This document shows, one piece after another, positions 10,506-53,491 of a DNA stretch of 64,000 bases. Within the stretch, counting starts at the first letter, position 1. Each line of letters starts with the position of its first letter. The position numbers and the translations under genes are program-made. The DNA lies in contig NZ_LXEY01000009.1 of assembly GCF_001657475.1 (NCBI RefSeq), positions 1 to 64,000 on the forward strand. The letters run 5' to 3'. This DNA comes from Enteractinococcus helveticum (lineage in GTDB: Bacteria > Actinomycetota > Actinomycetes > Actinomycetales > Micrococcaceae). Under the pieces are notes generated by a model. It did no database searches. It worked only from the letters and a program-made list of their open reading frames with translations, and was not told the DNA's origin.

Positions 10506-10506
10506 C

Positions 10507-21655: not shown

Positions 21656-21671
21656 CTGAACGTTCGTTCGG
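21656..21671. promoter_or_regulatory. Putative TetR/PaaR-type operator upstream of paaZ
   Basis: CTGAACGTTCGTTCGG contains the palindrome GAACGTTC and overlapping CGAACG units, and lies 25 bp upstream of the paaZ start. A related sequence is found upstream of the MHS transporter gene at 24119-24135. Phenylacetate genes of actinobacteria are commonly controlled by a TetR-family PaaR; no tetR gene is seen here. Confidence 0.45.
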
Positions 21672-21746
21672 TTATTGCGGCCAGTATAGCGTAGATAACA
21701 TTTTGCAGCCACCGAGTATTGCGACGCACGTCACGTGCGTGCTGGG

Positions 21747-22565: not shown

Positions 22566-22602
22566 GAGTGTTTCCTTTCGTGTGGTGTAGTTCAACGGCC
22601 GA

Positions 22603-22640
22603 CGGCGCCGGAAACCGTGATGAAACGGTTTCCGGCGCCG
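22603..22640 (-). terminator. Strong hairpin terminator after the MHS transporter gene
   Basis: CGGCGCCGGAAACCGT (22603-22618) pairs with ACGGTTTCCGGCGCCG (22625-22640) around a 6-base loop. It lies between the transporter stop codon and the next gene on the leftward strand, so the hydratase and the transporter are probably separate transcripts. Confidence 0.75.
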
Positions 22641-22669
22641 AAGCGAGGTGCTTTGTAGTTATAACCAGG

Positions 22670-24034: not shown

Positions 24035-24118
24035 GTTCTCCCCAGTGACAATAGGAAAATGATGCATTGGTGTGTGAGTGATGGCCCGCCAGGGGCGCTA
24101 TCGCCAACCGTTAACTCA

Positions 24119-24135
24119 CTGAACGATCGGTCTGG
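24119..24135. promoter_or_regulatory. Putative TetR/PaaR-type operator upstream of the MHS gene
   Basis: CTGAACGATCGGTCTGG contains CGATCG and shares CTGAACG-TCG with the site before paaZ. It lies upstream of the leftward MHS gene and could place it in the same regulon. Confidence 0.4.
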
Positions 24136-24210
24136 AAAGACATTATGACACAGGTGTGAGCACAATCACAAACTTCGCGTGTTTTCGTCGAAGTGTATTG
24201 AGGAAAGCAG

Positions 24211-24243
24211 AAATCCTGGCGGCTACAAGGCCTGCCAGGATTT
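24211..24243 (-). terminator. Hairpin terminator after the PaaI gene
   Basis: AAATCCTGGC (24211-24220) pairs with GCCAGGATTT (24234-24243) around a 13-base loop, 30 bp beyond the thioesterase stop codon. Confidence 0.7.
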
Positions 24244-24272
24244 CTACTGCAGTATGGACTTGGTGCGCTGCG

Positions 24273-24743
24273 TTAGGAGCGCTGAGCTCGTGGGATGGTT
24301 CGGAACCGGCCGCGGAACTCTGCGATGAGCTTTCCTTGATCATCGGTGATCGTGACATCGCACAACCCCGAACGTCCCGAGGTGTTGTGACGGCGTCCAA
24401 CAGCGATCAGCGGTGTATCGACGGGCGCGGAAGCGATGAAATGAATATCTGAACCCTGGGTGACGGAGATGGTGGAGCCATCGCCGTCGGGGTTATTGCA
24501 GGCCCACGCGAATAACGTGTCCGCAAAAGCAAATAACATCCCGCCGTGGGCGATGTCGAAGCCGTTGAGCATTTCGGGCCGAATGGTCATGTGCCCTTTG
24601 GCATATCCCTCGGCGTATTCGGAGATCGTGATGCCCAACCAGTCGGCTGCTTTATCAGTGCCAAGTATCGGATGATCATGGGGGCCAAAATTTCCCCGCT
24701 TGATGGACTGATCATTCGAAGCGGAATGCGCATTATTCGTCAT
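24273..24743 (-). CDS. paaI: PaaI-type hydroxyphenylacetyl-CoA thioesterase
   Basis: 156-residue hot-dog thioesterase. The PaaI motif NGFDIAHGGMLFAFADTLFA carries the catalytic region (Asn, HGG, and Asp in the helix) near residues 60-80. PaaI hydrolyses stalled hydroxylated aryl-CoA esters and protects the phenylacetate pathway. It has its own terminator and lies between the MHS gene and the muconate-cycloisomerase-like gene on the same strand. Confidence 0.85.
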   Translation of the reverse strand: MTNNAHSASNDQSIKRGNFGPHDHPILGTDKAADWLGITISEYAEGYAKGHMTIRPEMLNGFDIAHGGMLFAFADTLFAWACNNPDGDGSTISVTQGSDIHFIASAPVDTPLIAVGRRHNTSGRSGLCDVTITDDQGKLIAEFRGRFRTIPRAQRS

Positions 24744-30398: not shown

Positions 30399-30742
30399 GT
30401 TTGAAAGTTTGTCGTCTCAGTGAACTGACCCCAGGTGAGGGGCTTCGGATTGAGTCGGTGAGTCCGCCCATTGCCGTGTTCCTCACGGATGAGGGAACGG
30501 TGCATGCAATTGATGACACCTGCACACATCAGGACGCATCCTTAGCTGCAGGCTGGGTCGAAGACTGCAAGGTTGAATGTCCGTTACACGAAAGCTCGTT
30601 TTGCCTACTCACGGGCCAAGTGGATCAACCGCCCGCCAAACAGCCAGTCCGTGTTCATACCGTTGAAATTCACGGCGACGACGTAGTGGTCGAATTATCC
30701 AAAGAAGCCCCGAATCTGCCACCAGGAGTGACTGTGCCATGA
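30395..30742 (+). CDS. Rieske-type [2Fe-2S] ferredoxin
   Basis: 115 residues with the Rieske cluster motifs DDTCTHQDASL (C-x-H) near 46 and ECPLHESSF (C-x2-H) near 64. It resembles the BphA3/NdoA-type electron carriers of multicomponent ring-hydroxylating oxygenases. It overlaps the reductase gene downstream by 4 bp. It would pass electrons from that reductase to the oxygenase at 32033. Confidence 0.9.
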   Translation: MSLKVCRLSELTPGEGLRIESVSPPIAVFLTDEGTVHAIDDTCTHQDASLAAGWVEDCKVECPLHESSFCLLTGQVDQPPAKQPVRVHTVEIHGDDVVVELSKEAPNLPPGVTVP

Positions 30743-31941
30743 ATGCCCCAGCAGCTAATCTTTCGTCACAGGGCACGCTGATCATCGTTGGGGCAGGGTT
30801 GGCCGGTTATCACGTAGCACGGCAAGCTCGACAACAAGGTCACACCGGAGCCATCAGTATCATCGGCGACGAGCCTCGACCCGCTTACGATCGTCCCGCT
30901 TTGAGTAAGGCATTCCTCAATGGAACCGTGAACTTCGAAGACTTGCATCTTGATGACCCAGCTAATCCACTCGAGGTGACCTGGCACAGTGGGTCTGGTG
31001 CGGTTGAACTGTCGACCGAGCCCCTCGGTGTGCTCACCGCAGATGGTACTTTCCACGCTGGCGACAACGTCGTCATCGTGACTGGTGCAGAGGCTCAGCG
31101 GCTCCCGTCCTTTGGGCGCAGTGGCGGTGCATTTGTATTGCGGAACGTCGAAGACGCGTTAGCTTTGCGGGAGCGCATGATTGAAGGCCAGCGCATTGCC
31201 ATGGTTGGTGGCGGGTTCTTAGCACTGGAAGCCGTCAGTACCTTCATTGATCGAGGTGCCGCCGAAATTACGATCATTGCCAATGAACAGTTTCCCGGCG
31301 AAGCGCGGTTGGGAACATCCGTAGCACAAGCGATTCGAGGACTACACGAAAAGCGCGGGGTGGCCTTTGGACCGTCCGTCTTTGCGCATTCCGTGACCGA
31401 CATCGAAGATGGCAGTCAGGTGCTGAACCTGACGAATGGAGACACCGTCCAAGCGGACATCATTGTGTGCGCGATCGGTGCTACTCCGGCGACTCGCTGG
31501 CTGCGCGACGGGGATCTGGCGTTAGATCCGTCCGGTGCCATATTGTGTGATGATTTCGGGTTTACCGGCATCCCGGGCGTCTGGGCAGCCGGCGACTGCT
31601 CGCAATGGACCTCGCAAGCCGCTGGACTACGACCCATTGGCCAATGGCAAGAGGCCGTGGAACAAGCAGGCATCGTTGCCGCAGCGATCATGGGTGCACC
31701 ACCGGTGCCGTTCCAAGAGCCGTATTTTTGGTCCGAACAGTATGACGTGATGATCCAGGGTGCTGGACGCATCGCGCAATCTAATGAAGTGCACGTGCTC
31801 GACGGTTCCATCGAAGACGGCGATCTCTTAGTGAGTTACCGGTTGGACGGCGAAGAGATTGGCATCCTTGGCATGAACCGAATGCGTGAAGTCAAACGCT
31901 GGCGAAAAATGCGGACGGCGCGCGCATTGGCCACTGCATAA
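30739..31941 (+). CDS. FAD-dependent ferredoxin reductase of the Rieske system
   Basis: 400 residues. The N-terminal FAD motif is IIVGAGLAGYHVARQAR near 14-30, the NAD(P)H motif MVGGGFLALEAV near 155, and the second FAD motif GIPGVWAAGDC near 280. The PDRPALSK string near 50 is typical of the BphA4/HcaD/rhodocoxin reductase family. It is co-transcribed with the Rieske ferredoxin and lies 91 bp before the oxygenase gene. Confidence 0.9.
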   Translation: MNAPAANLSSQGTLIIVGAGLAGYHVARQARQQGHTGAISIIGDEPRPAYDRPALSKAFLNGTVNFEDLHLDDPANPLEVTWHSGSGAVELSTEPLGVLTADGTFHAGDNVVIVTGAEAQRLPSFGRSGGAFVLRNVEDALALRERMIEGQRIAMVGGGFLALEAVSTFIDRGAAEITIIANEQFPGEARLGTSVAQAIRGLHEKRGVAFGPSVFAHSVTDIEDGSQVLNLTNGDTVQADIIVCAIGATPATRWLRDGDLALDPSGAILCDDFGFTGIPGVWAAGDCSQWTSQAAGLRPIGQWQEAVEQAGIVAAAIMGAPPVPFQEPYFWSEQYDVMIQGAGRIAQSNEVHVLDGSIEDGDLLVSYRLDGEEIGILGMNRMREVKRWRKMRTARALATA

Positions 31942-32032
31942 CCAATCCAACCGTAACTTTTTCCCAGGTCATTCTTTTGCACCTCAGGGTGCCTATTAGC
32001 CACGCCCAAAAACTTATGAGAAAGGCTGCTCC

Positions 32033-33235
32033 ATGATCATTGACTCCCTTGACGCTCCAGCGCCGGGCTCCTCCTTGTTGCCGACACCTGCCGGAGATGT
32101 CTACACCGACCCCGAAATTTTCCGACTTGAACAACAAAATATTTTCGAAACCATGTGGAACTGCGTGCTACGTGTCGATTCCTTGGCCAGTGCTGGGGAA
32201 TGGAAGACCGTGACGGTGGGCCGCGAAGAGATTATCGTGGTCCGCACGAGGAAAGCCGGAATTCAGGCGTATTACAACGTGTGCCGTCACCGTGGCATGA
32301 GAGTTTGCACCACTAGTGAAGGTAAAAATAAAACCCTGCAGTGCGGTTACCACGCGTGGACCTATGCGCTCGAAGGAGACCTCGTTGCGGCACCGAATCT
32401 GACCTCCATGCCGGATGTAGACCGGCAAGAATATGGTCTCAAACCAGTACAAGTGCGCGAATGGTTGGGCTACATTTGGGTGTGCTTGGCTGACGAGCCG
32501 CCGTCGTTTGAAGACACCGTGCTCGGGGAGGTGCGCACCCGGTTTGGTGAAGTCCAATCCATCGATAACTACGGTATCGAGAACCTCAAGCTCGGAGAAT
32601 CTAAAACCTATGAGGTCGAGGCGAACTGGAAGCTGATCATCGAGAACTTCATGGAATGCTATCACTGCGCAACGATTCACCCGGAACTGACCGAGGTCAT
32701 TCCAGAATTCGCCGACGGGCTAGCCTCCCAACGCAAAAACGGTGAGATTCATGGTGCAAGTTTTGGTAGTGATATCGAAGGGTTCACCGTAGACGGTTCC
32801 AGTGGCGTAACAGCACTGCCCGCCATCGCACCCAGCCAGGATCGCAAGTACTACGCGATCACCGTCAAGCCACAAGTCTTTATCAACACTGTGCCGGACC
32901 ATGTGATTATTCATCGAATGTTTCCACAGTCTGAATCCCGGACCACCGTGATCTGCGATTGGCTATTTTTGCCCGAAGTTGTCGAACAGGGCATGGATAT
33001 TTCCAAGTCGGTGGAGTTATTCCATCGTGTCAATCAGCAAGATTTCGAGGCGTGCGAGTTGACCCAACCCTCCATGTCGTCCAAAGCCTACAACCGTGGT
33101 GGGGCTCTGGTTCCGAGTGAACACCACATTGAAGAGTTCCATCAGTGGTGGAACGAGACGATGGGATATCAGCGGGCTGGCGCTACTGAAAGCCCGATGA
33201 CCACTTCTGGTGGCTCCGTCACAACTGACCAATGA
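32033..33235 (+). CDS. Rieske oxygenase alpha subunit, glycine-betaine/quaternary-amine demethylase type
   Basis: 400 residues. The Rieske motif is CRHRGMRVC...CGYHAWTY near 85-110, and the mononuclear iron site is NFMECYHCATIHPEL near 205-219, with His and His as ligands and Glu in the bridging position. Glu instead of Asp here, and the C-terminal GALVPSEHHIEEFHQW, are features I associate with the quaternary-amine group (choline, carnitine and glycine-betaine monooxygenases such as GbcA). The neighbouring BCCT transporter and PurU fit demethylation of a betaine. Stachydrine or carnitine are alternatives. Confidence 0.82.
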   Translation: MIIDSLDAPAPGSSLLPTPAGDVYTDPEIFRLEQQNIFETMWNCVLRVDSLASAGEWKTVTVGREEIIVVRTRKAGIQAYYNVCRHRGMRVCTTSEGKNKTLQCGYHAWTYALEGDLVAAPNLTSMPDVDRQEYGLKPVQVREWLGYIWVCLADEPPSFEDTVLGEVRTRFGEVQSIDNYGIENLKLGESKTYEVEANWKLIIENFMECYHCATIHPELTEVIPEFADGLASQRKNGEIHGASFGSDIEGFTVDGSSGVTALPAIAPSQDRKYYAITVKPQVFINTVPDHVIIHRMFPQSESRTTVICDWLFLPEVVEQGMDISKSVELFHRVNQQDFEACELTQPSMSSKAYNRGGALVPSEHHIEEFHQWWNETMGYQRAGATESPMTTSGGSVTTDQ

Positions 33236-33244
33236 GTTCGATCC

Positions 33245-33282
33245 GACGGGAGGCGACTGCACTGCGGCGGTCGCCTCCCGTC
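33245..33282. terminator. Perfect hairpin between the oxygenase and purU genes
   Basis: GACGGGAGGCGAC (33245-33257) pairs with GTCGCCTCCCGTC (33270-33282) around a 12-base loop. It lies directly after the oxygenase stop codon. It could terminate part of the transcription or protect the upstream mRNA end; no U-tract follows. Confidence 0.55.
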
Positions 33283-33313
33283 GTCATTCCTGTCCCCTTC
33301 GAAAGGCTCCACC

Positions 33314-34228
33314 ATGTCTACAACCATTGCTCTGCCAGTTTCCTCATCCTCAGCAACAGCTCTACTACCCACGGATCACGGGTTAGTGGTCACCGTAGAA
33401 TGTCGCTCCACGCTCGGAGTGGTCCATGCGGTGAGCGGAGTGTTGCTGGAACACGGCTACAACATTATGGAACTTCACCAGTTCAACGACATCCGCGATG
33501 AACGCTTCTATTTGCGTATCCATGCCGAACCAGGACTCGAGACGGCCTCGCCAAAGTCTGAAATAGCACGAGGATTCCAGGACCTCGCTGCACAGTTCGG
33601 TATGACCTGGCAACTGCGTGACGCAACCACTCGGACCCGTACTGTGGTCATGGTTTCGAAATTCGAACACTGTCTTAACGACCTGCTCTTTCGCACCGCA
33701 AAAGGCGAGCTACCAATAGATATCGCCGCGGTGGTATCGAATCACTCAGATCATCAACGTCTCGTCGAGTGGCATGGCATCCCGTTCTTTCACATCCCGG
33801 TAACTCCAGAGACCAAACCCGAAGCCGAAGCGCAGCTGATCGAATTAGCGGAGCGGATGGACGTGGAACTGGTCGTGCTTGCTCGGTACATGCAGGTACT
33901 CAGTGATGAACTGTCTACCCGTTGGCAGGGAAGGGTGATCAATATTCATCATTCTTTCTTACCAAGTTTCAAAGGGGCAAAGCCCTATCATCAAGCGTTT
34001 GAGCGCGGCGTCAAGACGATTGGTGCCACCGCGCACTATGTAAACTCTGAACTCGATGAAGGCCCAATTATTGCTCAGCGAGTCACCGAGGTCGATCACG
34101 CCTATAGTCCCGAAGCCCTCGCGGCAGTCGGTCGGGAAACGGAATGCAAAGCTCTATCGGAGGCAGTGCGTTGGCACGCTGAAAGCCGTGTATTCCTTGC
34201 CGGAGCCAAGACGGTTGTCTTGAAGTAA
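33314..34228 (+). CDS. purU: Formyltetrahydrofolate deformylase (PurU), copy 1
   Basis: 304 residues: an N-terminal ACT domain (VVTVECRSTLGVVHAVSG) and a C-terminal formyltransferase-like domain with VLARYMQVLSDEL, the INIHHSFLPSFKGA segment holding catalytic Asn and His near 209-211, and Asp in ELDEGPI near 248. PurU hydrolyses 10-formyl-THF to THF and formate. Glycine-betaine catabolic clusters often include purU, since demethylation feeds C1 units into folate. It is about 55% similar by eye to the second copy at 45074. Confidence 0.9.
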   Translation: MSTTIALPVSSSSATALLPTDHGLVVTVECRSTLGVVHAVSGVLLEHGYNIMELHQFNDIRDERFYLRIHAEPGLETASPKSEIARGFQDLAAQFGMTWQLRDATTRTRTVVMVSKFEHCLNDLLFRTAKGELPIDIAAVVSNHSDHQRLVEWHGIPFFHIPVTPETKPEAEAQLIELAERMDVELVVLARYMQVLSDELSTRWQGRVINIHHSFLPSFKGAKPYHQAFERGVKTIGATAHYVNSELDEGPIIAQRVTEVDHAYSPEALAAVGRETECKALSEAVRWHAESRVFLAGAKTVVLK

Positions 34229-34272
34229 GCCGTGGCTCAGCAAACCACAACCGAATACGTGACGGAGATGAG

Positions 34273-36153
34273 ATGACCGAGCTTGAGAACCGCGAGTCCG
34301 AGGCAGCCAACGAAAGAAACTGTAGTTTCCTGGGAGACCAGCCTCCGCAGGGTCCCGCTGAACATCTGTTATTAGAAGACACTGATAGTGATGCCCGCAT
34401 CGCTGCCAAACTGAGGCTGCAGGGTATCCACCTGGGTGCAGGGCTGATCGCACCTCGGGTGTTTTGGCCGGCCTTGCTGATCATCGTAGCTGTCACCCTC
34501 ACGGCCATTGCTGCACCGGCGTTCACCGAGGCGGTACTGCAAACGATTCAGAACTGGATTGTTGAGACTCTGGGCTGGTATTACGTCCTCGTCGTGGCCG
34601 TGTTCATCCTGTTTTCTTTGGGGATCTGCTTCTCGAAATACGGCAAGATTACGCTAGGCCGGGATGGCGACCAGCCAGAATTCGGTCTCCTAACGTGGTT
34701 TTGTATGCTATTTGCCGCTGGAATGGGCATCGGGTTGGTGTTCTATGGCGTGGGTGAACCACTAACCTATGCCACCGTTGATCCCAAGCCCGGGTGGGAA
34801 GGCCAAGAGAATCAGCTGGCCAAGTTGGCGATGGCACAGACGTTCGTGCACTGGGGCTTGCATCCGTGGGCGATCTACGCGGTGATCGGTTTAGCTGTAG
34901 CGCATAGCATCCATCGACGTGGGCGTCCGGTCTCTATTCGCTGGGTGGTCGAACCGATCCTCGGGAGCAGGGTCAAAGGATGGATCGGGGATGTTATTGA
35001 CATCCTGGCAATCTTCGGCACGATCTTTGGTGTAGCCACGTCCTTGGGGCTAGGAGTGCAACAGATCGCCTCTGGGATGCAAGCCATCGGCATCGTCGAA
35101 GGCACAGATAACGTGCTGTTGGTGGTGCTGATCGTTGTGATCACGTTCATCGCCACGGCTTCGGTGGTCTCCGGCGTCGGACGTGGCATGAAATGGTTAT
35201 CGAATATCAACCTGTCTTTAGCTGCAGTGCTGCTGATTTCCGTGCTCCTGTTGGGGCCCACAGTGTTCTTGTTTCAGAATTTGGTTGAATCGCTTGGCGC
35301 CTACCTGGCCAACTGGATGAATATGACATTCGACGTGGGCACATACACGGGTGAGCAAGGCCGTACTTGGTCTTCGGCGTGGACCCTGTTTTATTGGGGC
35401 TGGTGGATTTCCTGGGCACCCTTCGTTGGTATCTTCATCGCGCGGATCTCCCGTGGCCGCACGGTTCGACAGTTTGTGACCGGGGTCTTGTTGGTGCCAG
35501 CGTTCGTGGGAATCGTCTGGTTCGCGGTGCTTGGCGGTACCGGGATTCATCGTCAGTTTTTTGGTGATGCAAACTTGGTTGATGCAGATGATGGAGTGGT
35601 AGCAGAACGGGCGCTATTTGATGTTCTCGATTCACTGCCGTGGGGAACTGTGCTGTCAGTGTTAGCTATCATTTTGGTAGCGCTGTTCTTCATCACCTCC
35701 TCAGATTCCGGTTCACTGGTGATCGACATGCTCGCATCGGGAGGGCATCCCAACCCACCGACCTGGTCGCGGGTACTGTTTTCACTGCTGGAAGGCGCTC
35801 TCGCGGTAGGTCTGTTACTCGCCGGAGGACTTCAAGCATTACAGGCCGGAGCATTGGCCACTGCATTGCCCTTTAGTGTGCTCTTGCTGTTGATGTGCGT
35901 GGCGACGTGGCGGGGCTTGCACCAAGACCATGTCCAGCACGAAGAGATGACCAGACAGCTGCACTATCAAGAGCTGAGCCGGGCGTTGTCGGCAGATCTC
36001 GCCAAGGCTAGAAGTCCGCATGTTGCCGAGCACGGACGGTGCACGACGTGTTCCCTCACGCAGAACGGTCACGTGCCCAGGCACGATCGAAGAATAAATA
36101 ACCAGCCTCAAAACGGACGAGCTGATAAACGGCCCCCAAACCTGCCTGACTGA
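34273..36153 (+). CDS. BCCT-family betaine/choline/carnitine transporter
   Basis: 626 residues with about twelve hydrophobic helices. The BCCT signature in helix 8 region is present: FYWGWWISWAPFVGIF followed by ARISRGRTVR, and the early motif FAAGMGIGLVFYGVGEP near 150. The long hydrophilic N- and C-terminal tails are usual. It takes up quaternary amines with Na+ or H+, and lies 44 bp after purU, completing an uptake-demethylation-C1-disposal unit with the Rieske system. A C-terminal CTTC pair is unusual. Confidence 0.92.
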   Translation: MTELENRESEAANERNCSFLGDQPPQGPAEHLLLEDTDSDARIAAKLRLQGIHLGAGLIAPRVFWPALLIIVAVTLTAIAAPAFTEAVLQTIQNWIVETLGWYYVLVVAVFILFSLGICFSKYGKITLGRDGDQPEFGLLTWFCMLFAAGMGIGLVFYGVGEPLTYATVDPKPGWEGQENQLAKLAMAQTFVHWGLHPWAIYAVIGLAVAHSIHRRGRPVSIRWVVEPILGSRVKGWIGDVIDILAIFGTIFGVATSLGLGVQQIASGMQAIGIVEGTDNVLLVVLIVVITFIATASVVSGVGRGMKWLSNINLSLAAVLLISVLLLGPTVFLFQNLVESLGAYLANWMNMTFDVGTYTGEQGRTWSSAWTLFYWGWWISWAPFVGIFIARISRGRTVRQFVTGVLLVPAFVGIVWFAVLGGTGIHRQFFGDANLVDADDGVVAERALFDVLDSLPWGTVLSVLAIILVALFFITSSDSGSLVIDMLASGGHPNPPTWSRVLFSLLEGALAVGLLLAGGLQALQAGALATALPFSVLLLLMCVATWRGLHQDHVQHEEMTRQLHYQELSRALSADLAKARSPHVAEHGRCTTCSLTQNGHVPRHDRRINNQPQNGRADKRPPNLPD

Positions 36154-36677: not shown

Positions 36678-38036
36678 ATGAGTGACTCGACCAGGCTCTC
36701 TTCAAGTGTTTCTGCTGTTGCAGAAGCAAATCTGGATAGCCAAACAGCCAGCGCACCAACCGCGAAAGAGCGGCGCAGGGTCTTAGGCGCATCATTGCTC
36801 GGAACTGCTGTCGAGTGGTACGACTTCTTCATCTATGGCTCAGCTGCTGCGCTAATTTTCGGTCCGCAATTCTTCCCAACTGAGGATCCGCTAGCCGGTA
36901 CCCTCGCGGCATTTGCTACATTTGCGGTGGGATTCATTGCCCGCCCGCTTGGCGGCGTCATTATGGGACACTACGGCGACCGCATTGGTCGAAAATCCAT
37001 GCTCATGTTCTCTATGATGCTCATGGGGATCGCTACAGTAGGGATTGGACTGCTGCCAAACTATGCTGCGATCGGCGTGTGGGCACCAATCCTGCTGGTC
37101 CTCCTGCGTCTGTTGCAAGGCGTCGGTGTGGGCGGCGAATGGGGTGGTGCGGTGTTGATGGCCGTGGAGTACTCCCCGTCCAATAAACGAGCCCTGTACG
37201 GGGCCTTCCCGCAGATGGGTCTGCCCATTGGGATCATCGCATCCAACATGGTCTTCATCGTCGTCACCAACATCATGGCTCCAGAAATGTTTCAGGCTTG
37301 GGGCTGGCGCATCCCATTCCTCTTTAGTGCCGTGCTTGTTGGTATCGCGCTTTGGATCCGGTTGCGAGTTGAAGACTCCCCGGCGTTTAAGAAAGTCCAG
37401 TCCAAGGACGAAGTCGCCAAAGCGCCACTGGTCGACCTATTGAAAAATCACCTGGGGACCGTGTTGCTGGCCGGCACCATTTGCATCGCTTCGCCTGCAC
37501 TGGGCTATCTGTACTCGGTGTGGATGCTGTCGCATCGCGAAAACCTGGGCACCGACGGTATCTCACAGAACCTCATGCTCGCACTGATCATCTGGGGTGC
37601 AGTATGCCACCTGATAACCGTCGCACTGGGTGCGGTGCTAGCCGATAAGTTCACCCAGAAACGCATCTTCTTGTGGGGCGCAGGCTTACTGGCCGTCTTT
37701 GCTTTCCCATTCTTCTGGCTCGTGGATACCGGTGCTTGGTATAACATCGCCATAGCCTTCGCCCTGATGCTGTTGGCCCAGTCGCTGATGGCCGGACCAC
37801 AAGCGGCACTCGTGGCTGAACTTTTCCCTGCCGAAGTACGGTACTCGGGTGCCTCGGTCGCTTATCAAATCGGGTCGATTCTGGGAGGCGGGTTCATGCC
37901 ACTGATTGCTACCAGCCTGTATGCAGCATTCAATGACTCGTGGCCGATTGCGACCTACATGTTCATTCTCGCCGCCGTCAGCTTTATTGCCATGGCTGTG
38001 CTGAAAGTTGGCAAATACCGCGCATCGGTCGACTAA
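36678..38036 (+). CDS. MFS transporter, MHS family, upstream of ligAB
   Basis: 452 residues. MHS motifs: GTAVEWYDFFIYGSAAAL near the N-terminus, GGVIMGHYGDRIGRKSM, and LLQGVGVGGEWGGAVLMAVE in helix 5. It is 118 bp upstream of ligA on the same strand with a candidate operator on each side. By position it is the likely importer of the aromatic acid handled by LigM and LigAB. It is related to but distinct from the MHS proteins at 22670 and 47390. Confidence 0.88.
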   Translation: MSDSTRLSSSVSAVAEANLDSQTASAPTAKERRRVLGASLLGTAVEWYDFFIYGSAAALIFGPQFFPTEDPLAGTLAAFATFAVGFIARPLGGVIMGHYGDRIGRKSMLMFSMMLMGIATVGIGLLPNYAAIGVWAPILLVLLRLLQGVGVGGEWGGAVLMAVEYSPSNKRALYGAFPQMGLPIGIIASNMVFIVVTNIMAPEMFQAWGWRIPFLFSAVLVGIALWIRLRVEDSPAFKKVQSKDEVAKAPLVDLLKNHLGTVLLAGTICIASPALGYLYSVWMLSHRENLGTDGISQNLMLALIIWGAVCHLITVALGAVLADKFTQKRIFLWGAGLLAVFAFPFFWLVDTGAWYNIAIAFALMLLAQSLMAGPQAALVAELFPAEVRYSGASVAYQIGSILGGGFMPLIATSLYAAFNDSWPIATYMFILAAVSFIAMAVLKVGKYRASVD

Positions 38037-38154: not shown

Positions 38155-38514
38155 ATGTCTACGCTTACCCCCGTCGTCGAGGGCGCATACGTTTACGACA
38201 CCAAGCTGAGCAACCAAGGTCGTAATCTCAACAGAATGTGCTTCTCTCTGAAAGATGCCGAGAACCGCGAGAAATTCCAGGCGGACGAAGTAGCATACTG
38301 CAACGCGTATAACCTCACCGAAGAACAAAAGCAGGCCGTCTTGGATCGTGACTGGATCAGCATGATCGAAAAAGGTGGCGCTTCGATTTTCTACATCATC
38401 AAATTAGCGGCAATTGACCGCAAATCCATGCAGGATCTCGGGGGCATTTTCACCGGGATGACTACTGATGAATTCGTTGCAGAGTTGCGCGCAGGAGGAC
38501 GGAAGTTTGGCTGA
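38155..38514 (+). CDS. ligA: LigA-type small subunit of an extradiol (protocatechuate 4,5-) dioxygenase
   Basis: 119 residues from the ATG at 38155 (GGAGGAAACG upstream). The all-helical LigA fold is suggested by LNRMCFSLKDAENREKF, EEQKQAVLDRDW and GGASIFYIIKLAAID. The alpha subunit caps the LigB active site in the alpha2beta2 enzyme. Its last 8 bp overlap the ligB start. Substrates of the family include protocatechuate, gallate and 3-O-methylgallate. Confidence 0.85.
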   Translation: MSTLTPVVEGAYVYDTKLSNQGRNLNRMCFSLKDAENREKFQADEVAYCNAYNLTEEQKQAVLDRDWISMIEKGGASIFYIIKLAAIDRKSMQDLGGIFTGMTTDEFVAELRAGGRKFG

Positions 38515-39385
38515 AATCATTTGGGGTCTGGCAACCTCGCACGTACCATCCATTGGTGCTGCGATGGACCACAACAAGACCGAAGACGAATACTGGAAGC
38601 CACTGTTTGACGGCTACGGCCCAGCTCGCGCATGGATGGCCGAACATAAGCCCGACGTCGCCATTGTTGTGTACAACGATCATGCCAACGCCCTCGGGCT
38701 GGAAATGATCCCGACATTCTCTATCGGTACTGCCGAACGCTACAACGTCGCTGATGAAGGGTACGGCCCACGCTCCGTGCCAAATATCGAAGGCGACTTG
38801 GATCTATCTGAACACCTGCTGGTCAACCTGGTTGACGAAGGCTTCGACATGACCGCCCTGCAGGAACTGGATGTTGATCACGGCTGCACCGTGCCGCTGT
38901 CGGTCTATACTCCAGATCCGGGTGATGCCTGGCCATGCCGTGTGGTGCCCATGCTGGTCAATGTTCTGCAGTACCCACAGCCAACGGCAGCTCGCTGCCT
39001 CGCGCTGGGTGAAGCACTGGGACGAGCCATTCGGTCCTATCCAAAAGACATCAAAGTTGCCGTCTTCGGCACCGGTGGCATGTCGCACCAGCTGTCCGGT
39101 GAACGTGCCGGGCTGATCAACGAAGAATTCGACCGGAACTTCTTGGAAAAAATCGAAACAGATCCACAGTCTCTGGCCGCAATTTCTCGTGGTGAATACA
39201 TTGAACAAGCCGGCTCGGAAGGCATTGAGATGATCATGTGGCTGATCATGCGCGGGGCGTTGGGCGACGACATCACCAGAATCCACGACACCTATCATGT
39301 CCCGGCGTCCAACACAGCAGCTGCCCTGGCCTTATTTGCCACGGAAGCCGTCAACGCCAAGAATAACGAACTCGCGGCAGTTTAG
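38507..39385 (+). CDS. ligB: LigB-type catalytic subunit of an extradiol dioxygenase
   Basis: 292 residues from the TTG at 38507 (GAGGACGGAAG upstream), giving MAEIIWGLATSHVPSIG, which puts the first iron ligand at His12 as in LigB. The second is in VYNDHANAL near 59, and FGTGGMSHQLSGE contains the conserved catalytic histidine near 190. It splits the ring of a dihydroxybenzoate next to the carboxylate side using Fe(II) and O2. Overlap with ligA ensures coupled synthesis. It is adjacent to an alpha/beta hydrolase and not to ligC. Confidence 0.9.
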   Translation: MAEIIWGLATSHVPSIGAAMDHNKTEDEYWKPLFDGYGPARAWMAEHKPDVAIVVYNDHANALGLEMIPTFSIGTAERYNVADEGYGPRSVPNIEGDLDLSEHLLVNLVDEGFDMTALQELDVDHGCTVPLSVYTPDPGDAWPCRVVPMLVNVLQYPQPTAARCLALGEALGRAIRSYPKDIKVAVFGTGGMSHQLSGERAGLINEEFDRNFLEKIETDPQSLAAISRGEYIEQAGSEGIEMIMWLIMRGALGDDITRIHDTYHVPASNTAAALALFATEAVNAKNNELAAV

Positions 39386-39440
39386 GACTCGAAACGAAGA
39401 GGCGGTGGGAGAAAATCCACCAGGTATTGAGGGGAGAAAA

Positions 39441-40154
39441 ATGAGTACATTTGTACTGGTCCACGGTGCTTGGCACGGTGGATGGTGCTGGCAGCGGACC
39501 GCTCCATTGCTGGAGCGTGCTGGCCACGAAGTCCACACACCCACACTGACGGGGCTATCGAATAAGGCCCATTTGTTGTCGCCGGCGGTAGGTCTGGATA
39601 CCCATATCGAAGACATCGTCAGCTACATCGAGGCATACGATCTCAGCGAGGTAACCCTGGTCGGTCACAGCTACGGTGGCCAGGTCATCACCGGTGTCGC
39701 GGATCGCATTCCAGATCGTCTGGCTCGTCGGGTTCACTTAGACGGTTTTATCGGTGACGGCCGCCCAGCTATTGAGCTGCTGCCAGATGGTCCTGCCGGG
39801 CACTACCGACATTCCGTAACAGAACAGGGCTTCGACTGGCTCATTCCACTGCGTCCCCTGGAGAAGCTGGGCGTCACCGAGTCCCTGGACCTGGAGTGGC
39901 TGACCCCGCGGCTAACCCCGCATCCGTGGAAGACCTATACCGATGCATTGTCGCTAAGGGGTAACCATGAGAAGGTCACCGGCGTGTTCATTGAAAGTGT
40001 CGACTGGATGCGTGTCTTCCAAAAATATGCCGAGATCGCCGAAGAATCTGGCTGGGAAACCTACACACTGAACACCGGACACGAAGCGATGGTCACGGCG
40101 CCGGGCGAACTGGCAGACACCTTGCTGACCATTGTTGAAAAGGATAACGCATGA
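39441..40154 (+). CDS. Alpha/beta hydrolase in the ligAB operon
   Basis: 237 residues. It begins STFVLVHGAWHGGWCWQ (oxyanion region), has the nucleophile elbow VGHSYGGQVI near 75-84, and the histidine in NTGHEAMVTAP near 215. This short esterase/hydroxynitrile-lyase-like type acts on esters, lactones or C-C bonds. Translationally coupled to the next gene by an ATGA overlap. In this operon it may hydrolyse a lactone or ring-cleavage product, the step done by LigI in sphingomonads, though LigI belongs to a different fold; this is inference. Confidence 0.8.
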   Translation: MSTFVLVHGAWHGGWCWQRTAPLLERAGHEVHTPTLTGLSNKAHLLSPAVGLDTHIEDIVSYIEAYDLSEVTLVGHSYGGQVITGVADRIPDRLARRVHLDGFIGDGRPAIELLPDGPAGHYRHSVTEQGFDWLIPLRPLEKLGVTESLDLEWLTPRLTPHPWKTYTDALSLRGNHEKVTGVFIESVDWMRVFQKYAEIAEESGWETYTLNTGHEAMVTAPGELADTLLTIVEKDNA

Positions 40155-40432
40155 GCATGGAATTCTTGGTTCGTTTTGAAACCTTCTTGCCAGAGTCCAT
40201 GAATCAGGAGGCAGTCAAAGCCCTGAAAACTGCTGAACGGCAGCGTGCCATAGAACTGCGTGAAGCCGGCATTTTGAAAAGGCTGTGGCGGGTCCCAGGA
40301 CGACGGGCAACCGTTGGGCTGTGGCAAGCCACCTCAGCCACTGAGCTTCACGAAGCCCTGGCATCACTGCCGCAGTTCCCATGGATGGACGTTGAGGTCG
40401 AAACCTTGGCAACCCACCCGCAGGAGCAGTAG
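40151..40432 (+). CDS. Muconolactone-isomerase-like protein in the ligAB operon
   Basis: 93 residues beginning MSMEFLVRFETFLPESM, with KRLWRVPGRRATVGLWQ and ALASLPQFPWMDVEVETL, the muconolactone isomerase pattern. It is a diverged paralogue of the protein at 28713. Placed between a hydrolase and an SDR in a meta-cleavage operon, it is unlikely to act on muconolactone itself; isomerisation of an oxo-dicarboxylate or pyrone-type intermediate is plausible. Confidence 0.8.
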   Translation: MSMEFLVRFETFLPESMNQEAVKALKTAERQRAIELREAGILKRLWRVPGRRATVGLWQATSATELHEALASLPQFPWMDVEVETLATHPQEQ

Positions 40433-40436
40433 TTTC

Positions 40437-41213
40437 GTGACAAAAACACACGATCACGACACCGGACAGCCGCGAGCCATCGCACAACGGCTGTCCGGTA
40501 CGTGCGCCATCGTCACCGGCGCAGCACAGGGTATTGGCCGGGCCATCGCCGACAGGCTGGCCGCCGAAGGCAGTATTGTCGTGTGCCTGGATATCCAAGA
40601 AATGGCAGCACCGGTGGTCCAGGGTCAAGAATTTCACTTCTGTGATGTCACGGATGCCCACCAGGTACAAGATGTCGTAGCCAAAGTGCTCGACGAGCAC
40701 GGTGGCGTGGACATTCTGGTCAATAACGCTGGATTATTAGAACAGGCGCGCTCACTGCGCGACGTCACTTCCGAACAATTGCATAAGTACTTCGATACCA
40801 ATGCCGTTGGTCCGATGCTGATGGTCCAAGCCGCCTACGATGCGCTCATCGCTAGTAAGTGGCGGGGCAGAGTCATTAATATCGCCTCGCGCACCTTCTT
40901 CACAGGCAGCTCCAGGCAGCCGGCCTATGTCGCGTCGAAAGGCGCGCTACTGGGCCTGACAAGGGTCATGGCACATGAGCTTGGACAGTACGGCGTCACC
41001 GTGAATGCCGTGTTGCCATCCCAGATTGCCAGCCCCGGAACACGCCGATACACCTCCGATGAATCCTTTGCTTCAACCATGAGCCGTCAGGCGATTCGTG
41101 AGTTCGTCAGCGGCGATGACGTCGCTGGCACCGTTGCATTCCTCGCGTCCCCGGATGGGACTATGATGACGGGACAAACCGTGGTCTGCGATGGCGGCGG
41201 ATTGATGCGATAA
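40437..41213 (+). CDS. Short-chain dehydrogenase/reductase in the ligAB operon
   Basis: 258 residues from the GTG at 40437 with AGGAG upstream. Classical SDR motifs: TGAAQGIGRAIAD (cofactor), NNAGLLEQ, the serine in NIASRTFFTG, YVASKGAL (YxxxK), and a C-terminal DGGGLMR. Acidic residue after strand 2 (CLDIQE) favours NAD. It could oxidise the semialdehyde product of LigAB in place of LigC, or act on another step. The gene ends 25 bp before the histidine kinase gene. Confidence 0.85.
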   Translation: MTKTHDHDTGQPRAIAQRLSGTCAIVTGAAQGIGRAIADRLAAEGSIVVCLDIQEMAAPVVQGQEFHFCDVTDAHQVQDVVAKVLDEHGGVDILVNNAGLLEQARSLRDVTSEQLHKYFDTNAVGPMLMVQAAYDALIASKWRGRVINIASRTFFTGSSRQPAYVASKGALLGLTRVMAHELGQYGVTVNAVLPSQIASPGTRRYTSDESFASTMSRQAIREFVSGDDVAGTVAFLASPDGTMMTGQTVVCDGGGLMR

Positions 41214-41238: not shown

Positions 41239-42582
41239 ATGAATCTTTCCATGGGCACACCAGATTTCAATGCTGCAGACATAGCTGCTCGTGACGCCCA
41301 AATCCAAGATCTTCAGCAACAGCTTGCCGACGCTCGCCGTCAAGAACAATATTTGACGGCGGTGACTCGCACGACCGCTAACCTGGCCTCGGAACGGTCG
41401 TTGCCCCTAACCTTGACGGCAATGGCCGAGGAGATTGTGCAGGCCGATGAGCTAGTCGGTGTCCAAGTACTGACGAATGAGCATGCCAGCGGCAAGCTAC
41501 ACATGTTGGGCATGGCAGGGTTCCCGCCATCACTGGGCAGCTCATTCTATGCCAAGCTCAAACAATGTGAGCAGCTTGGAGCAGACCTGTTAATGCTCAA
41601 AGCATTCCACATCGCTAAACCAGTGGTCATCGAAAACCGCTACGAGCAGGTCATGTCGGATCCGTCCTGGGAACCGCTGCACGAATACCACCGTGAACCG
41701 CGCTGGGGAGACTTCGCGTCGTTTCCGATCATTGTGCGAGGGAAGACCGTGGGGATTCTGAATGCCTTTGTAGCTCCCGGATTTAAGGTTGACACTCGCA
41801 GTTACGCATTTTTGAGTTCTATGGCCGAACAGGCCGCTTTTGCCATTGACTATGCGTCACTGTTGGACGAGGAACGGCAGATTGCTCAGCGCCAAGAACG
41901 GCAGCAACTCGCCCGAAATCTGCATGACTCCGTTGTTCAACAGGTCTTTTCGATGGGTATGTTGTCGCAGACCGTGAGCATTTTGGCCCAGAAAAATGAT
42001 GTCAACGTTTTAGAACGGATCTTGGAAACCTCCCGCGATCTGGAAGACATCACATCATCGGTGCTCAAAGATCTCCGGATGCTAGTTGCACAGCTGAAGC
42101 CCACGGTCATTGACGAGGGAGAATTTCGGCGCGCGTTGGAGACCTTTCAATCCACCACTCACCGGCAAACCGGGTTGGAGATTTCCAGTCGCGTGGATCC
42201 GGTAGTCGATATGCTGGAACGAGAATTGGCCGAAGACCTGTATCACGTGATTGCAGAAGCAGTGCATAACGCGGTCAAACATAGCTCGGCCAGCGAGATC
42301 GACATCGATATCGCCATTGATGACCAACTGATGCTGACTGTCCAAGACAACGGGAATTCGACTAATAATCAACTCTCACCGCACCACCTCGTAGCTGCCG
42401 ATCACCCTCCAAAACCCGGTAACGGTTTGAGTTTCATGCGCGAACGTGTGGAACGGTGGCAGGGAGAATTTTCTGTAGACTTTGGTGTCCCTCGGGGTAC
42501 CGTTGTGCGGGCAACGATGCCCGTGCTGATACGACAGTCCCTAGATGAAGACAGTCTTTTGGGTCCTGGAGGGAACGAATAA
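41239..42582 (+). CDS. Sensor histidine kinase (GAF, NarL/DesK type)
   Basis: 447 residues (a start at 41251 is also possible). An N-terminal coiled coil (DAQIQDLQQQLADARRQEQ) leads to a GAF domain at about 45-205, then a HisKA_3 domain with the phosphorylated His in ARNLHDSVVQQVFSMG near 229, and an HATPase with AEAVHNAVKHSSASEID (N box) and GNGLSFMRERVERW (G box). No membrane helix is seen, so it is a cytoplasmic sensor, possibly of an aromatic acid bound by the GAF domain. Its stop overlaps the response-regulator start. Confidence 0.9.
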   Translation: MNLSMGTPDFNAADIAARDAQIQDLQQQLADARRQEQYLTAVTRTTANLASERSLPLTLTAMAEEIVQADELVGVQVLTNEHASGKLHMLGMAGFPPSLGSSFYAKLKQCEQLGADLLMLKAFHIAKPVVIENRYEQVMSDPSWEPLHEYHREPRWGDFASFPIIVRGKTVGILNAFVAPGFKVDTRSYAFLSSMAEQAAFAIDYASLLDEERQIAQRQERQQLARNLHDSVVQQVFSMGMLSQTVSILAQKNDVNVLERILETSRDLEDITSSVLKDLRMLVAQLKPTVIDEGEFRRALETFQSTTHRQTGLEISSRVDPVVDMLERELAEDLYHVIAEAVHNAVKHSSASEIDIDIAIDDQLMLTVQDNGNSTNNQLSPHHLVAADHPPKPGNGLSFMRERVERWQGEFSVDFGVPRGTVVRATMPVLIRQSLDEDSLLGPGGNE

Positions 42583-43271
42583 TGCCGAAAGAAATTGATA
42601 TGCCGTCCGACACAGATCAACAGGATACGCTCAAGGTTTTTGTTGTCGACGACCACGCAATAGCTCGTCGCGGGATCGCCGCATACCTAGACGTCCTAGA
42701 CGATATGGAGACCATCGGGGAGGCCATTGACGGACAAGATGCGCTTGACCAAATGGCCGAATTCGCAGCATTCAATAAATTACCGGATGTCGTGCTGCTG
42801 GATTTGTTGATGCCACGGTTAGACGGCGTGAGCACTCTGAAGATTCTGCGTGAAAAATATCCGCAAGTCCAAGTGGTCATTCTAACCAGCTATGACGAAG
42901 TCGAGCGCATGAACACTGTGATGCGCCTGGGTGCGGCTGGTTATCTGTTAAAAGATGCCGGACCACTTGAAGTCGCTTCAGCCATTCGCGCCGCGGTGAA
43001 GGATGAAGTATTTATTGCCACGTCGATGGCTAAGAAACTCACCCAAATGATGAGCTCACCAGCCAGCGGTATTTCCTCGTTGACCGAACGTGAGCGGACC
43101 GTGCTGATGCTTGTGGGGGAGGGGTGCTCCAACCAGGAGATCGCGAAGCGACTCCACATTAGCGAGCGGACCGCCCGGACCCACGTATCCAACATGTTGG
43201 GCAAACTCAATCTGAGCTCTCGGACCCAAGCAGCGCTGCTGGCCGTCAACTCGGGGCTCATCGCTCCATAA
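42582..43271 (+). CDS. NarL/LuxR-family response regulator
   Basis: 229 residues. The receiver domain has VVDDHAIARRG, the phosphorylation Asp in VVLLDLLMPRLDG near 70, and LKDAG with the conserved Lys. The C-terminal LuxR HTH contains LTERERTVLML and NQEIAKRLHISERTARTHV near 160-210. Paired with the kinase by overlapping stop/start. It lies between the ligAB and ligM units, and the repeated palindromes before those units are likely binding sites. Confidence 0.92.
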   Translation: MPKEIDMPSDTDQQDTLKVFVVDDHAIARRGIAAYLDVLDDMETIGEAIDGQDALDQMAEFAAFNKLPDVVLLDLLMPRLDGVSTLKILREKYPQVQVVILTSYDEVERMNTVMRLGAAGYLLKDAGPLEVASAIRAAVKDEVFIATSMAKKLTQMMSSPASGISSLTERERTVLMLVGEGCSNQEIAKRLHISERTARTHVSNMLGKLNLSSRTQAALLAVNSGLIAP

Positions 43272-43408: not shown

Positions 43409-44863
<1,455 letters not shown>

Positions 44864-45073
44864 ACGCTTGAGCAAGCTGCGGCGTCCGTTTCCTTATTTC
44901 AGGCGCTGCAGCTTTGCTGACTCTTCGCAAGAGCGATACATGCTGCTAGGAAACTGTGTTTGACTAGCAGCATTGTCATTACGAAATCTTTTTCTACGCC
45001 GCAGGCAGCGGTATGTAGAAACCTCGACGGCGCGCACCACGTTGAGGTATACCCTTCAAAGGATCCAATAGAC

Positions 45074-45943
45074 ATGACTTCTGATTCCAACAATCTGATC
45101 GTCACTCTGTCCGGCCCGAACCAGCCGGGGATTGTGCATGCCATCACCGGCGCATTGCTGAGAGTCAATGCCGATATTGCAGAGTCAAAACAGTTCGACT
45201 CTCCGCACAGTGGAACGTTTTTCATGCGCGTGCAATTTTCCACGGATTGTTCCGTTCAAGACACTCAAACAGCGATCGCCGATGTCGTGGAGCAATACGA
45301 TATGGATGCTGAGGTCTATGATGCCGCGGTGAAAACCCGCACCTTGATTATGGTGTCCAAAGACGGCCGGACCATGAATGAACTGTTGTTCCAGCAACAC
45401 GCCGGCACCCTGCCGGTGGAAGTCCCCGTGATTGTGTCCAATCACCTGGATCTACAACCCATGGCCTATTTCTACGATGTGCCCTTCGTGCACATTCCGC
45501 TGATCAAACACGCCGACGGCACCGATAATAAGGCCGAGGCCGAAGCCCGGCTCATGCAGATCATCGACCAGTACGACATCGAACTCGTGGTCTTGGCCCG
45601 GTACATGCAGATCCTGTCCGATGAGCTCACCCGCAAACTCGATGGCAAAGCCATCAATATTCACCACTCGTTTTTGCCTTCCTTCAAAGGCGCCCGGCCG
45701 TATCACCAGGCCCATGACCGCGGGGTCAAACTCATCGGGGCCACCGCCCACTACGTCACCGCTGACCTGGACGAGGGCCCGATCATCGAACAACGCGTCC
45801 AACGCGTCAACCACGCCCTAACCGCCCAAGACTTCGTCCAACGCGGCCGCGCGGTCGAAGGCGCCACCCTGGCCCAGGCCGTGCAATGGCACACCGAACA
45901 CCGAGTCCTCCTCGACGGCGACCGCACCGTCATCTTCGAATAA
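45074..45943 (+). CDS. purU: Formyltetrahydrofolate deformylase (PurU), copy 2
   Basis: 289 residues from the ATG at 45074 (AAAGGATCC upstream); the open frame to 44960 is without a ribosome site. ACT domain LIVTLSGPNQPGIVHAITG, then VLARYMQILSDEL, INIHHSFLPSFKGA with catalytic Asn/His near 194-196, and DLDEGPIIEQ near 232. It is located after ligM, so it would regenerate THF by releasing formate from 10-formyl-THF once the methyl group has been oxidised through folate. The 3' third is notably more G+C-rich and codon-biased than the 5' part. Confidence 0.9.
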   Translation: MTSDSNNLIVTLSGPNQPGIVHAITGALLRVNADIAESKQFDSPHSGTFFMRVQFSTDCSVQDTQTAIADVVEQYDMDAEVYDAAVKTRTLIMVSKDGRTMNELLFQQHAGTLPVEVPVIVSNHLDLQPMAYFYDVPFVHIPLIKHADGTDNKAEAEARLMQIIDQYDIELVVLARYMQILSDELTRKLDGKAINIHHSFLPSFKGARPYHQAHDRGVKLIGATAHYVTADLDEGPIIEQRVQRVNHALTAQDFVQRGRAVEGATLAQAVQWHTEHRVLLDGDRTVIFE

Positions 45944-52612: not shown

Positions 52613-53491
52613 ATGTACGAATCCAATATTGATCTTGATGCCGTCACTGCTATTGATACGCACGTGCATATCGAAGCCGATGACTGCGGGCACGCAGCAC
52701 TGCCACAACCGTTGCTCGACGCCGCCGACGCATATTTTAAACGCACCGGACCATCACCAACCATCGACCAGATCGCGGAGTATTACCGCGAATTGTCCAT
52801 GGTGGCGGTGGTGTTTACCGTCGATTCGGAAACCAATATGAAGACGCGTCCGAATAGTAGTGAAGAAATTGCTCGGGGTGCCGCACGCAATAACGATGTG
52901 CTCATTCCGTTTGCCAGTGTTGACCCGCTGCAAGGGGAAAAGGCGGTGCACAAGGCGCGCACCCTGGTGGAGGAATTCGGGGTGCGAGGATTCAAATTTC
53001 ATCCAAGCACCCAGGGCTTTGCCCCCAATGACGAACAATTCCTGCCGCTGTTCACCCAGCTCGAAGCATACGGGCTGCCGGTGGTCTTCCATACCGGCCA
53101 GACGGGCATCGGCGCGGGTATGCCGGGTGGCTTCGGCATCCGGCTGTCACTGTCCAACCCAATGTTTTTGGATGATCTGGCAGCCCGGCACCCGTATATG
53201 CCGATCATCATGGCGCACCCTTCGGTCCCGTGGCAAGACGAAGCGATCGCTATTGCCACCCATAAAGCCAACGTGTGGATTGACTTATCGGGATGGTCAC
53301 CAAAATACTTTGAACCCAAACTGGTCCAAGCCGCCCGTACATATCTGCAAGATAAAGTCCTGTTCGCATCAGATTATCCGGCTATCAAACCGGAGCGCTG
53401 GATGCGCGATTATGCCGGGCTTGGTCTGCCAGATGAGATCAGCCAGAAGATTTTCAAAACCAATGCGGCCCGATTACTGAAACTCGTGTGA
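52613..53491 (+). CDS. Amidohydrolase-2 family protein (ACMSD-like)
   Basis: 292 residues. Metal-site motifs: AIDTHVHIE (HxH) near 16-18, VFHTGQTG, IIMAHPSVPW and FASDYPAIKP (Asp). This family includes decarboxylases acting on aromatic or semialdehyde carboxylates (ACMSD, gamma-resorcylate decarboxylase) and some lactonases/hydratases. Located between the ligase and the acyl-CoA dehydrogenase genes; the role is not clear. Its end overlaps the next open frame. Confidence 0.82.
   Translation: MYESNIDLDAVTAIDTHVHIEADDCGHAALPQPLLDAADAYFKRTGPSPTIDQIAEYYRELSMVAVVFTVDSETNMKTRPNSSEEIARGAARNNDVLIPFASVDPLQGEKAVHKARTLVEEFGVRGFKFHPSTQGFAPNDEQFLPLFTQLEAYGLPVVFHTGQTGIGAGMPGGFGIRLSLSNPMFLDDLAARHPYMPIIMAHPSVPWQDEAIAIATHKANVWIDLSGWSPKYFEPKLVQAARTYLQDKVLFASDYPAIKPERWMRDYAGLGLPDEISQKIFKTNAARLLKLV

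Follow-up and report, generated by a model that had tools for sequence, protein, structure and literature searches.

What does a LigAB-type extradiol dioxygenase cleave in an actinobacterium, and what becomes of the product, when its genes stand beside a hydrolase and an isomerase-like protein and have neither LigC nor LigI as neighbours? The question is raised by an operon of Enteractinococcus helveticum at positions 38155 to 41213 of contig NZ_LXEY01000009.1 (assembly GCF_001657475.1), within the stretch of 64,000 nucleotides (positions 1 to 64,000) that was analysed and that is called the window here. The five + strand reading frames are intact and all match family models, which bears out the genes and families named in a first-pass annotation of this DNA: LigA, LigB, an alpha/beta hydrolase (ABH), a muconolactone-isomerase-like protein (MIL) and a short-chain dehydrogenase/reductase (SDR). 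We propose, with a probability of about 0.68, that the operon encodes the ring-opening section of a catabolic island for syringate and 3-O-methylgallate (3MGA), in which LigAB, ABH and MIL would act ahead of LigU, LigJ and LigK.

38155-38514, + strand: ligA, alpha subunit (PF07746), with Met92 at the position of Phe103 of strain SYK-6
38507-39385, + strand: ligB, class III extradiol dioxygenase catalytic subunit (PF02900), SYK-6-type iron ligands and catalytic His kept
39441-40154, + strand: ABH, of the SABP2/methylesterase/hydroxynitrile-lyase fold group; putative methyl esterase for 4-carboxy-2-hydroxy-6-methoxy-6-oxohexa-2,4-dienoate (CHMOD)
40151-40432, + strand: MIL, muconolactone-isomerase family (PF02426); putative isomerase of 4-carboxy-2-hydroxymuconate (CHMA)
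40437-41213, + strand: SDR oxidoreductase (adh_short_C2); nearest named model pyridoxal 4-dehydrogenase, below cut-off

The arrangement is conserved in Actinomycetota. In a LigB scan the best 80 of 589 relatives were taken; together with eight loci from elsewhere, five of the ABH-MIL and three of the LigC type, they make up the 88 loci scored, and the window brings the tree to 89 rows. Neighbours were accepted at >=40% identity for ABH and MIL and >=45% for SDR, over >=45% of the query, and presences near LigAB are lower bounds because many loci stop at contig ends. In the LigB tree, rooted at its midpoint, a branch with 100/100 support sets 28 rows, all of them actinobacterial, apart from the rest; the split is identical to that given by a threshold of 66% LigB identity, which had been chosen after the data were seen. 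ABH or MIL occurs near LigAB in 24 of these 28 rows and LigI or LigC in none, whereas the other 61 rows contain no ABH or MIL, LigI in 45, LigC in 46, one or both in 50 and neither in 11. Among the 27 related loci (window excluded), ABH is present in 23, MIL in 22, a sensor kinase and a response regulator in 20 each and SDR in 9; kinase, regulator and SDR are found in none of the other 61. O-demethylase genes lie near LigAB in 14 of the 27 and in 0 of the 61. In this clade ABH and MIL stand near LigAB where LigC and LigI are absent, and the idea of the first-pass annotation that hydrolase and isomerase process the ring-cleavage product is probably right.

The same division is seen among 396 genomes of the order. 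LigA was matched in 26 of them, in 25 above cut-off, and 10 genomes, all among those 26, have an ABH with at least about 50% identity; at most seven ABH candidates were scored in many genomes, and absences and totals are incomplete. The chance of such a coincidence is 2e-13, a figure that is not used as support, the genomes being related. MIL adjoins ABH in 10 of 10. Five genomes, that of E. helveticum (G000) and G373, G148, G115 and G101, carry ABH-MIL with LigAB, kinase and regulator. Their best LigC match is none (G000, G373) or partial, at 31-38% identity (G148, G115, G101), and a LigI homologue is found elsewhere in G000 and G373 and at E 1e-20 not at all in the other three. In seven further LigAB genomes LigC (70-100%) and LigI (76-100%) stand beside LigAB in 7 of 7. 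An adjacent pair of intradiol dioxygenase genes, read as PcaHG-like, occurs in 5 of 5 genomes with the ABH-MIL-LigAB set vs 1 of 7 of the others. Most simply, this would mean that the five genomes leave protocatechuate to PcaHG and that LigAB serves another purpose. Around two of the ABH-MIL pairs that have no LigAB beside them (L080, L082), a LysR-like regulator and carboxymuconolactone-decarboxylase-like and fumarylacetoacetase-like genes were recognised by eye, perhaps another aromatic pathway.

What else LigAB might cleave is suggested by one residue. Both subunits score far above the family cut-offs (LigA 118.5 bits for PF07746, cut-off 25.3; LigB 228.5 for PF02900, cut-off 26.3) and LigB passes the subfamily model NF009903 (376 vs 317 bits). 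The LigA equivalogs of protocatechuate 4,5-dioxygenase are not reached, TIGR02792 by a narrow miss (103.4 vs 108.6) and NF009918 at 119.1 vs 161. Window LigB shares 49% identity with its SYK-6 counterpart across 277 aligned residues, and SYK-6 His12, His61, His195 and Glu242 correspond to His12, His59, His194 and Glu241; we take these to be the iron ligands and the catalytic His. The His12 to which the first-pass annotation drew attention is therefore in register with that of SYK-6. SYK-6 LigA Phe103 aligns with window Met92, so that the Phe of protocatechuate 4,5-dioxygenase is absent here. According to the available part of the SYK-6 study, Phe103 contacts the ring C5 substituent and sets selectivity there, and several position-103 mutants, the active ones named including Val and Leu, gained gallate and 3MGA activity (PMC10094722). 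The position is occupied by Met in 25, Leu in 1 and Val in 1 of the 27 related loci, and in the other 61 by Phe in 48, Met in 9, Tyr in 2, Val in 1 and Ala in 1. It is likely that 3MGA, one of the substrates put forward in the first-pass annotation, is the LigAB substrate here.

Cleavage of 3MGA would yield a methyl ester, and the fold of ABH fits its demethylation, CHMOD being such an ester. ABH matches Abhydrolase_6 with 65.7 bits, and Ser77, Glu185 and His214 are invariant in an alignment of 18 sequences (17 of the 18 ABH sequences collected, the near-copy L134 being omitted, and the window). From these 18 an AlphaFold model was computed, with a mean pLDDT of 79.5. The solved structure that it matches best is 6tj2, an extracellular SABP2-like hydrolase (Z 25.1, 227 residues aligned, root-mean-square deviation 2.8), and the methyl-salicylate esterase SABP2 itself (1y7i) follows at Z 23.0. 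ABH is probably a member of the methyl-salicylate-esterase-like fold group, and from the model a role as CHMOD methyl esterase is proposed. In two loci examined for the sphingomonad DesC/DesD proteins because of their O-demethylase neighbours (L203, L204), no ABH or MIL match was found at E 1e-3; in L204 a hydrolase adjoins an O-demethylase.

MIL (108.2 bits for MIase PF02426) would supply the isomerisation. Its profile matches, over almost the full length of the profile, muconolactone isomerase CatC (1mli) and 5-chloromuconolactone dehalogenase (4fpi) (E 3e-19 and 5e-19), and Glu29, position 27 of both structures, is invariant in 17 aligned sequences (16 of the 17 MIL collected, again without L134, and the window). 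This family Glu27 is presumably the catalytic residue of muconolactone isomerases. MIL thus resembles both enzymes in fold family and in Glu27, but differs from CatC by a score below the CatC equivalog (TIGR03221, 85.7 vs 130.6 bits) and by its LigAB context, which is not that of catechol ortho cleavage.

The genome also encodes, as judged by homology, the full lower pathway from 4-oxalomesaconate (OMA), beyond the window on the operon's own contig (C9), at a distance of 35-37 kb downstream:

76654-77805: LigU
77846-78868: LigJ
78877-79557: LigK

LigU passes NF033377 (452 bits, cut-off 440) and LigK TIGR02798 (368 bits, cut-off 304.5). LigJ matched no NCBIfam model and is named on the basis of PF04909 and of its best PDB matches, solved 4-oxalomesaconate hydratases (E 1e-152 and 4e-138). 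Of the 27 related loci, 14 have LigK and 14 have LigJ or GalB in the surrounding DNA. The first-pass annotation had seen genes that stood instead of LigC, LigI, LigJ and LigK, and from them had suggested an undescribed lower pathway. The first statement holds for LigC, for which the LigC of genome G390 found no match in the E. helveticum genome at E 1e-15, and for LigI in so far as it is unlinked; it fails for LigJ and LigK. With LigU, LigJ and LigK on the same contig, novelty cannot be claimed for the whole lower pathway, and the operon goes with the absence of LigC and of a linked LigI. Homologues of ligC, ligI, ligJ or ligK elsewhere in the genome, with matching regulation, had been named as evidence against that proposal; as far as gene presence goes, LigJ, LigK and a LigI homologue were found, LigC was not, so that the proposal is contradicted in part.

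The LigI homologue, at 59298-60212 of contig C116, is 56% identical to the LigI of G390, a LigA neighbour there, and matches PDB LigI 4d8l at E 1.5e-81; it is predicted to be LigI. Contig C116 carries a second LigI-like gene 17 kb away (41405-41806, frame only 169 residues), and inspection by eye of the surroundings of the two gave no further lig genes. C116 could be foreign, since the contamination estimate for the assembly is 6.11%; its G+C values (0.553 and 0.561) are close to that of the window (0.562). An amidohydrolase within the window (52613-53491) was considered as LigI and rejected: it matched no NCBIfam model at E 1e-10, and the G390 LigI, used as query at E 1e-20, did not find it, matching only two places on C116. 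As a separate observation, a catechol-2,3-dioxygenase-like gene (L015:15566-16570; 281 bits, cut-off 320) follows LigK, the LigU-LigJ-LigK group with this gene spanning C9:76654-80569; in G148 such a gene (L044:6820-7782) sits between LigU and LigJ, and a gene recognised by eye as a 6-phosphogluconate-dehydrogenase-like NAD-binding protein (L044:7626-8612) lies between it and LigJ.

Methoxylated substrates call for O-demethylases, and five strong ones of the GcvT type are present in the genome, three nearer LigM and two nearer (53%, 58%) a Rhodococcus opacus enzyme that leans towards DesA. One LigM-type gene lies downstream of the operon, as listed below, and a second at C9:68233-69657 (820 bits, cut-off 580). 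On a plasmid of R. opacus DSM 44186 an O-demethylase gene, metF, purU and folD run directly into ligA-ligB-ABH-MIL, with the folate-synthesis genes folE, folP and pabB, FdhF (formate-dehydrogenase-like), LigK and a PIG-L protein nearby; from its gene content the region looks like an island for methoxyl carbon and ring cleavage.

From gene content and conservation we infer the following route, including all its substrates and reactions. A GcvT-type O-demethylase would remove one methoxyl group of syringate to give 3MGA, the methyl group passing to folate and on to MetF and PurU. LigAB would cleave 3MGA to CHMOD, ABH would hydrolyse the ester to methanol and CHMA, and MIL would shift a proton to convert CHMA to OMA, which LigU, LigJ and LigK would turn into pyruvate and oxaloacetate. 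The kinase and regulator probably control the gene set. A more far-reaching proposal, that Actinomycetota have their own CHMOD-to-OMA module in which a MIase-family protein acts on an open-chain hydroxymuconate, with a hydrolase resembling methylesterases as its partner and a LigAB that the loss of Phe103 has adapted to a C5 methoxyl group, is tentative, and we would give it somewhat less than an even chance.

Several observations weigh against the 3MGA route. Four of the 28 rows have neither ABH nor MIL in the DNA around LigAB, and L130 has ABH without MIL. In 5 of the 10 genomes of the order the ABH-MIL pair has no LigAB beside it, and at 2-4 kb from four of these five pairs (L080-L083) there is an amidohydrolase 26-28% identical to LigJ; since such pairs exist, ABH-MIL may serve other substrates. 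Met103 occurs in 9 of the 61 outside LigA sequences, 5 of them near LigI or LigC, and it therefore fits a bulky C5 group without proving it; nor is Met among the position-103 mutants named in the available part of the SYK-6 study (PMC10094722). Hydroxynitrile lyases (Z 22.8) tie with SABP2 as structural matches of ABH, which also resembles a pyrethroid hydrolase (Z 22.1) and zearalenone lactonases (Z 20.5-20.6), and low confidence at residues 38-45 and 132-138 of the model makes its pocket unreadable. None of the 13 O-demethylase matches of the genome passes the DesA model NF047633 (800 bits; best 619), so that the step from syringate to 3MGA is plausible but not tied to one gene. The LigI homologue means that 2-pyrone-4,6-dicarboxylate (PDC) might also be handled. 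Finally, SDR is an accessory gene that the proposed route does not explain.

SDR is central to the route envisaged in the first-pass annotation, in which LigAB opens protocatechuate to 4-carboxy-2-hydroxymuconate-6-semialdehyde (CHMS), SDR and ABH substitute for LigC and LigI, the first by oxidising the hemiacetal of CHMS to PDC and the second by opening the lactone ring of PDC, and MIL adjusts a double bond. The missing LigC would agree with this, as would the nearest NCBIfam model of SDR (181.2 bits for adh_short_C2), pyridoxal 4-dehydrogenase, although at 203 bits vs a cut-off of 325; that enzyme, we assume, converts a cyclic hemiacetal to a lactone. SDR also adjoins MIL in 7 of the 28 clusters. 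However, it is near LigAB in only 10 of the 28 (9 of the 27 and the window), esterase-like structures rank first for ABH, each of the five ABH-MIL-LigAB genomes of the order has the PcaHG-like pair, the clusters often contain O-demethylases and LigU is there for OMA, which makes the pyrone-lactone route unlikely. SDR could instead be an addition to the 3MGA route, a LigC substitute that rescues CHMS from vanillate-derived protocatechuate in an operon for two substrates. The neighbouring O-demethylase fits the LigM model for vanillate and 3MGA, in L122 and L042 SDR and a LigM-type O-demethylase are neighbours, and G000 and G373 have LigI homologues; against this, two of the three genomes without a LigI match at E 1e-20 have SDR, G148 being the single one of the five without an SDR of >=45%, and we consider such a double function improbable.

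The remaining alternative dispenses with ABH and MIL: LigAB would be a gallate dioxygenase giving OMA directly, and the two other proteins would act on an intermediate of another pathway, as the pairs without adjacent LigAB might suggest. In SYK-6 LigM turns 3MGA into gallate, as stated in the available part of PMC6888825. A hydrolase is not required for gallate cleavage, but LigAB is accompanied by ABH or MIL in most rows of the clade, and we regard this explanation as very improbable. The 3MGA route is the one compared below with known systems.

Its chemistry has precedents. The following statements on them rest on the available parts of the cited reports. In the linear syringate pathway of Pseudomonas sp. 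NGC7, MgaAB-MgaC-MgaD-GalDBC, one operon likewise joins an alpha/beta hydrolase and an isomerase to a LigAB-like dioxygenase, and the pathway similarly continues with an OMA tautomerase, a hydratase of 2-keto-4-carboxy-3-hexenedioate (KCH) and an aldolase of 4-carboxy-4-hydroxy-2-oxoadipate (CHA), NGC7 itself being described as having no PDC hydrolase (PMC12314914). It differs in demethylation, which is by VanAB and would be folate-based here, and in MgaD, which is SnoaL-like (PMC12314914), whereas the gene in that slot of the window, at this locus, is a PF02426 MIase. MgaA and MgaB are 21% and 41% identical to SYK-6 LigA and LigB (PMC12314914), so that window LigB, at 49%, is nearer SYK-6; MgaC and ABH are likened by description only. 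A Pseudomonas sp. Q11 locus (L164), with LigI and LigC, does not belong to the NGC7 type. In Novosphingobium aromaticivorans, where DesA belongs to the same pathway, DesC and DesD demethylate CHMOD and form OMA by cis-trans isomerisation; the likeness is again by description, desCD (Saro_2864-2865) lie away from ligAB (Saro_2812-2813), and LigI is present too (PMC8091115, PMC6888825). An actinobacterial enzyme of the LigAB family, likened by description, is PcaA of Pseudarthrobacter phenanthrenivorans Sphe3, a single subunit that is highly specific for protocatechuate though it also converts gallate (PMC8431788), in contrast to the two genes of the window; LigA and LigB form one reading frame in G390, G183 and G296. 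No report of an actinobacterial LigAB-hydrolase-MIase operon was found in searches of open-licence PMC papers. Organisms with all NGC7-type steps (>50% identity to the reference enzymes) include Actinomycetes, so overlap is possible (PMC12314914). With the chemistry known from NGC7 and N. aromaticivorans, what appears to be new in our analysis is an isomerase family other than that of NGC7, folate-based demethylation and a LigB nearer SYK-6 than MgaB.

The immediate neighbourhood of the operon comprises the following genes:

36678-38036, + strand: major facilitator superfamily (MFS) metabolite/H+ symporter, probable aromatic-acid uptake
41239-42582, + strand: GAF sensor histidine kinase, starting 25 nt after SDR
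42582-43271, + strand: LuxR-type response regulator, overlapping the kinase gene
43451-44863, + strand: LigM-type tetrahydrofolate-dependent O-demethylase (NF047885, 819.4 bits, cut-off 580)
45068-45943, + strand: PurU formyltetrahydrofolate deformylase, probable recycling of methyl carbon

Homologues of the symporter (73-75%) are placed between ligB and ABH in L045, L123 and L125. Within the operon, coupling by overlaps, as described in the first-pass annotation, is seen between ligA and ligB (8 nt, ligB starting with TTG at 38507) and between ABH and MIL (4 nt), while ABH starts with ATG at 39441 after a gap of 55 nt and SDR with GTG at 40437 after a gap of 4 nt. Past the window, an ABC transporter, MetF, alcohol and aldehyde dehydrogenases and a flavin oxidase were named by eye on the same contig.

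Elsewhere in the window, a ferredoxin reductase, a Rieske oxygenase (best model GbcA, 223 bits, cut-off 670 not reached), PurU and a BCCT transporter (best model betaine uptake, 533 bits, cut-off 650 not reached) at 30739-36153 look like a glycine betaine demethylation set beside lignin genes. A cytochrome P450 with a VanB-like reductase on the - strand at 59614-61927, opposite an IclR-like regulator, is a candidate aryl-ether demethylase (non-P450 names by eye). PaaZ (1023 bits, cut-off 563), with enoyl-CoA-hydratase-like and thioesterase-like genes recognised by eye, forms part of a phenylacetate pathway at 19529-24743 (- strand). Two transposition modules were noted, at 255-4838 (resolvase, TniQ-like, AAA ATPase and integrase, named by eye) and at 7559-11170 (resolvase, integrase, AAA ATPase and resolvase, named by eye except for the integrase, for which the IS481 model gives 112 bits, cut-off 224 not reached).

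In the reports consulted, genes of syringate catabolism have been assigned in a few Proteobacteria, namely SYK-6, DSM 12444 and NGC7. The clade provides testable genes in Arthrobacter, Rhodococcus, Streptomyces, Pseudonocardiaceae, Blastococcus, Micromonosporaceae and others, and clear predictions follow for a single residue, Met92 of LigA, and for a knockout of ABH. When mgaC was deleted in NGC7, PDC was formed from syringate at 95% (PMC12314914, available part), and an ABH knockout might likewise make such hosts producers of PDC, a polymer monomer. If the substrate of MIL is indeed an open-chain hydroxymuconate and not a lactone, this would be a new reaction for the muconolactone-isomerase family. 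3MGA is a breakdown product of hardwood lignin, and the operon would, if our reading is true, digest methoxylated lignin acids.

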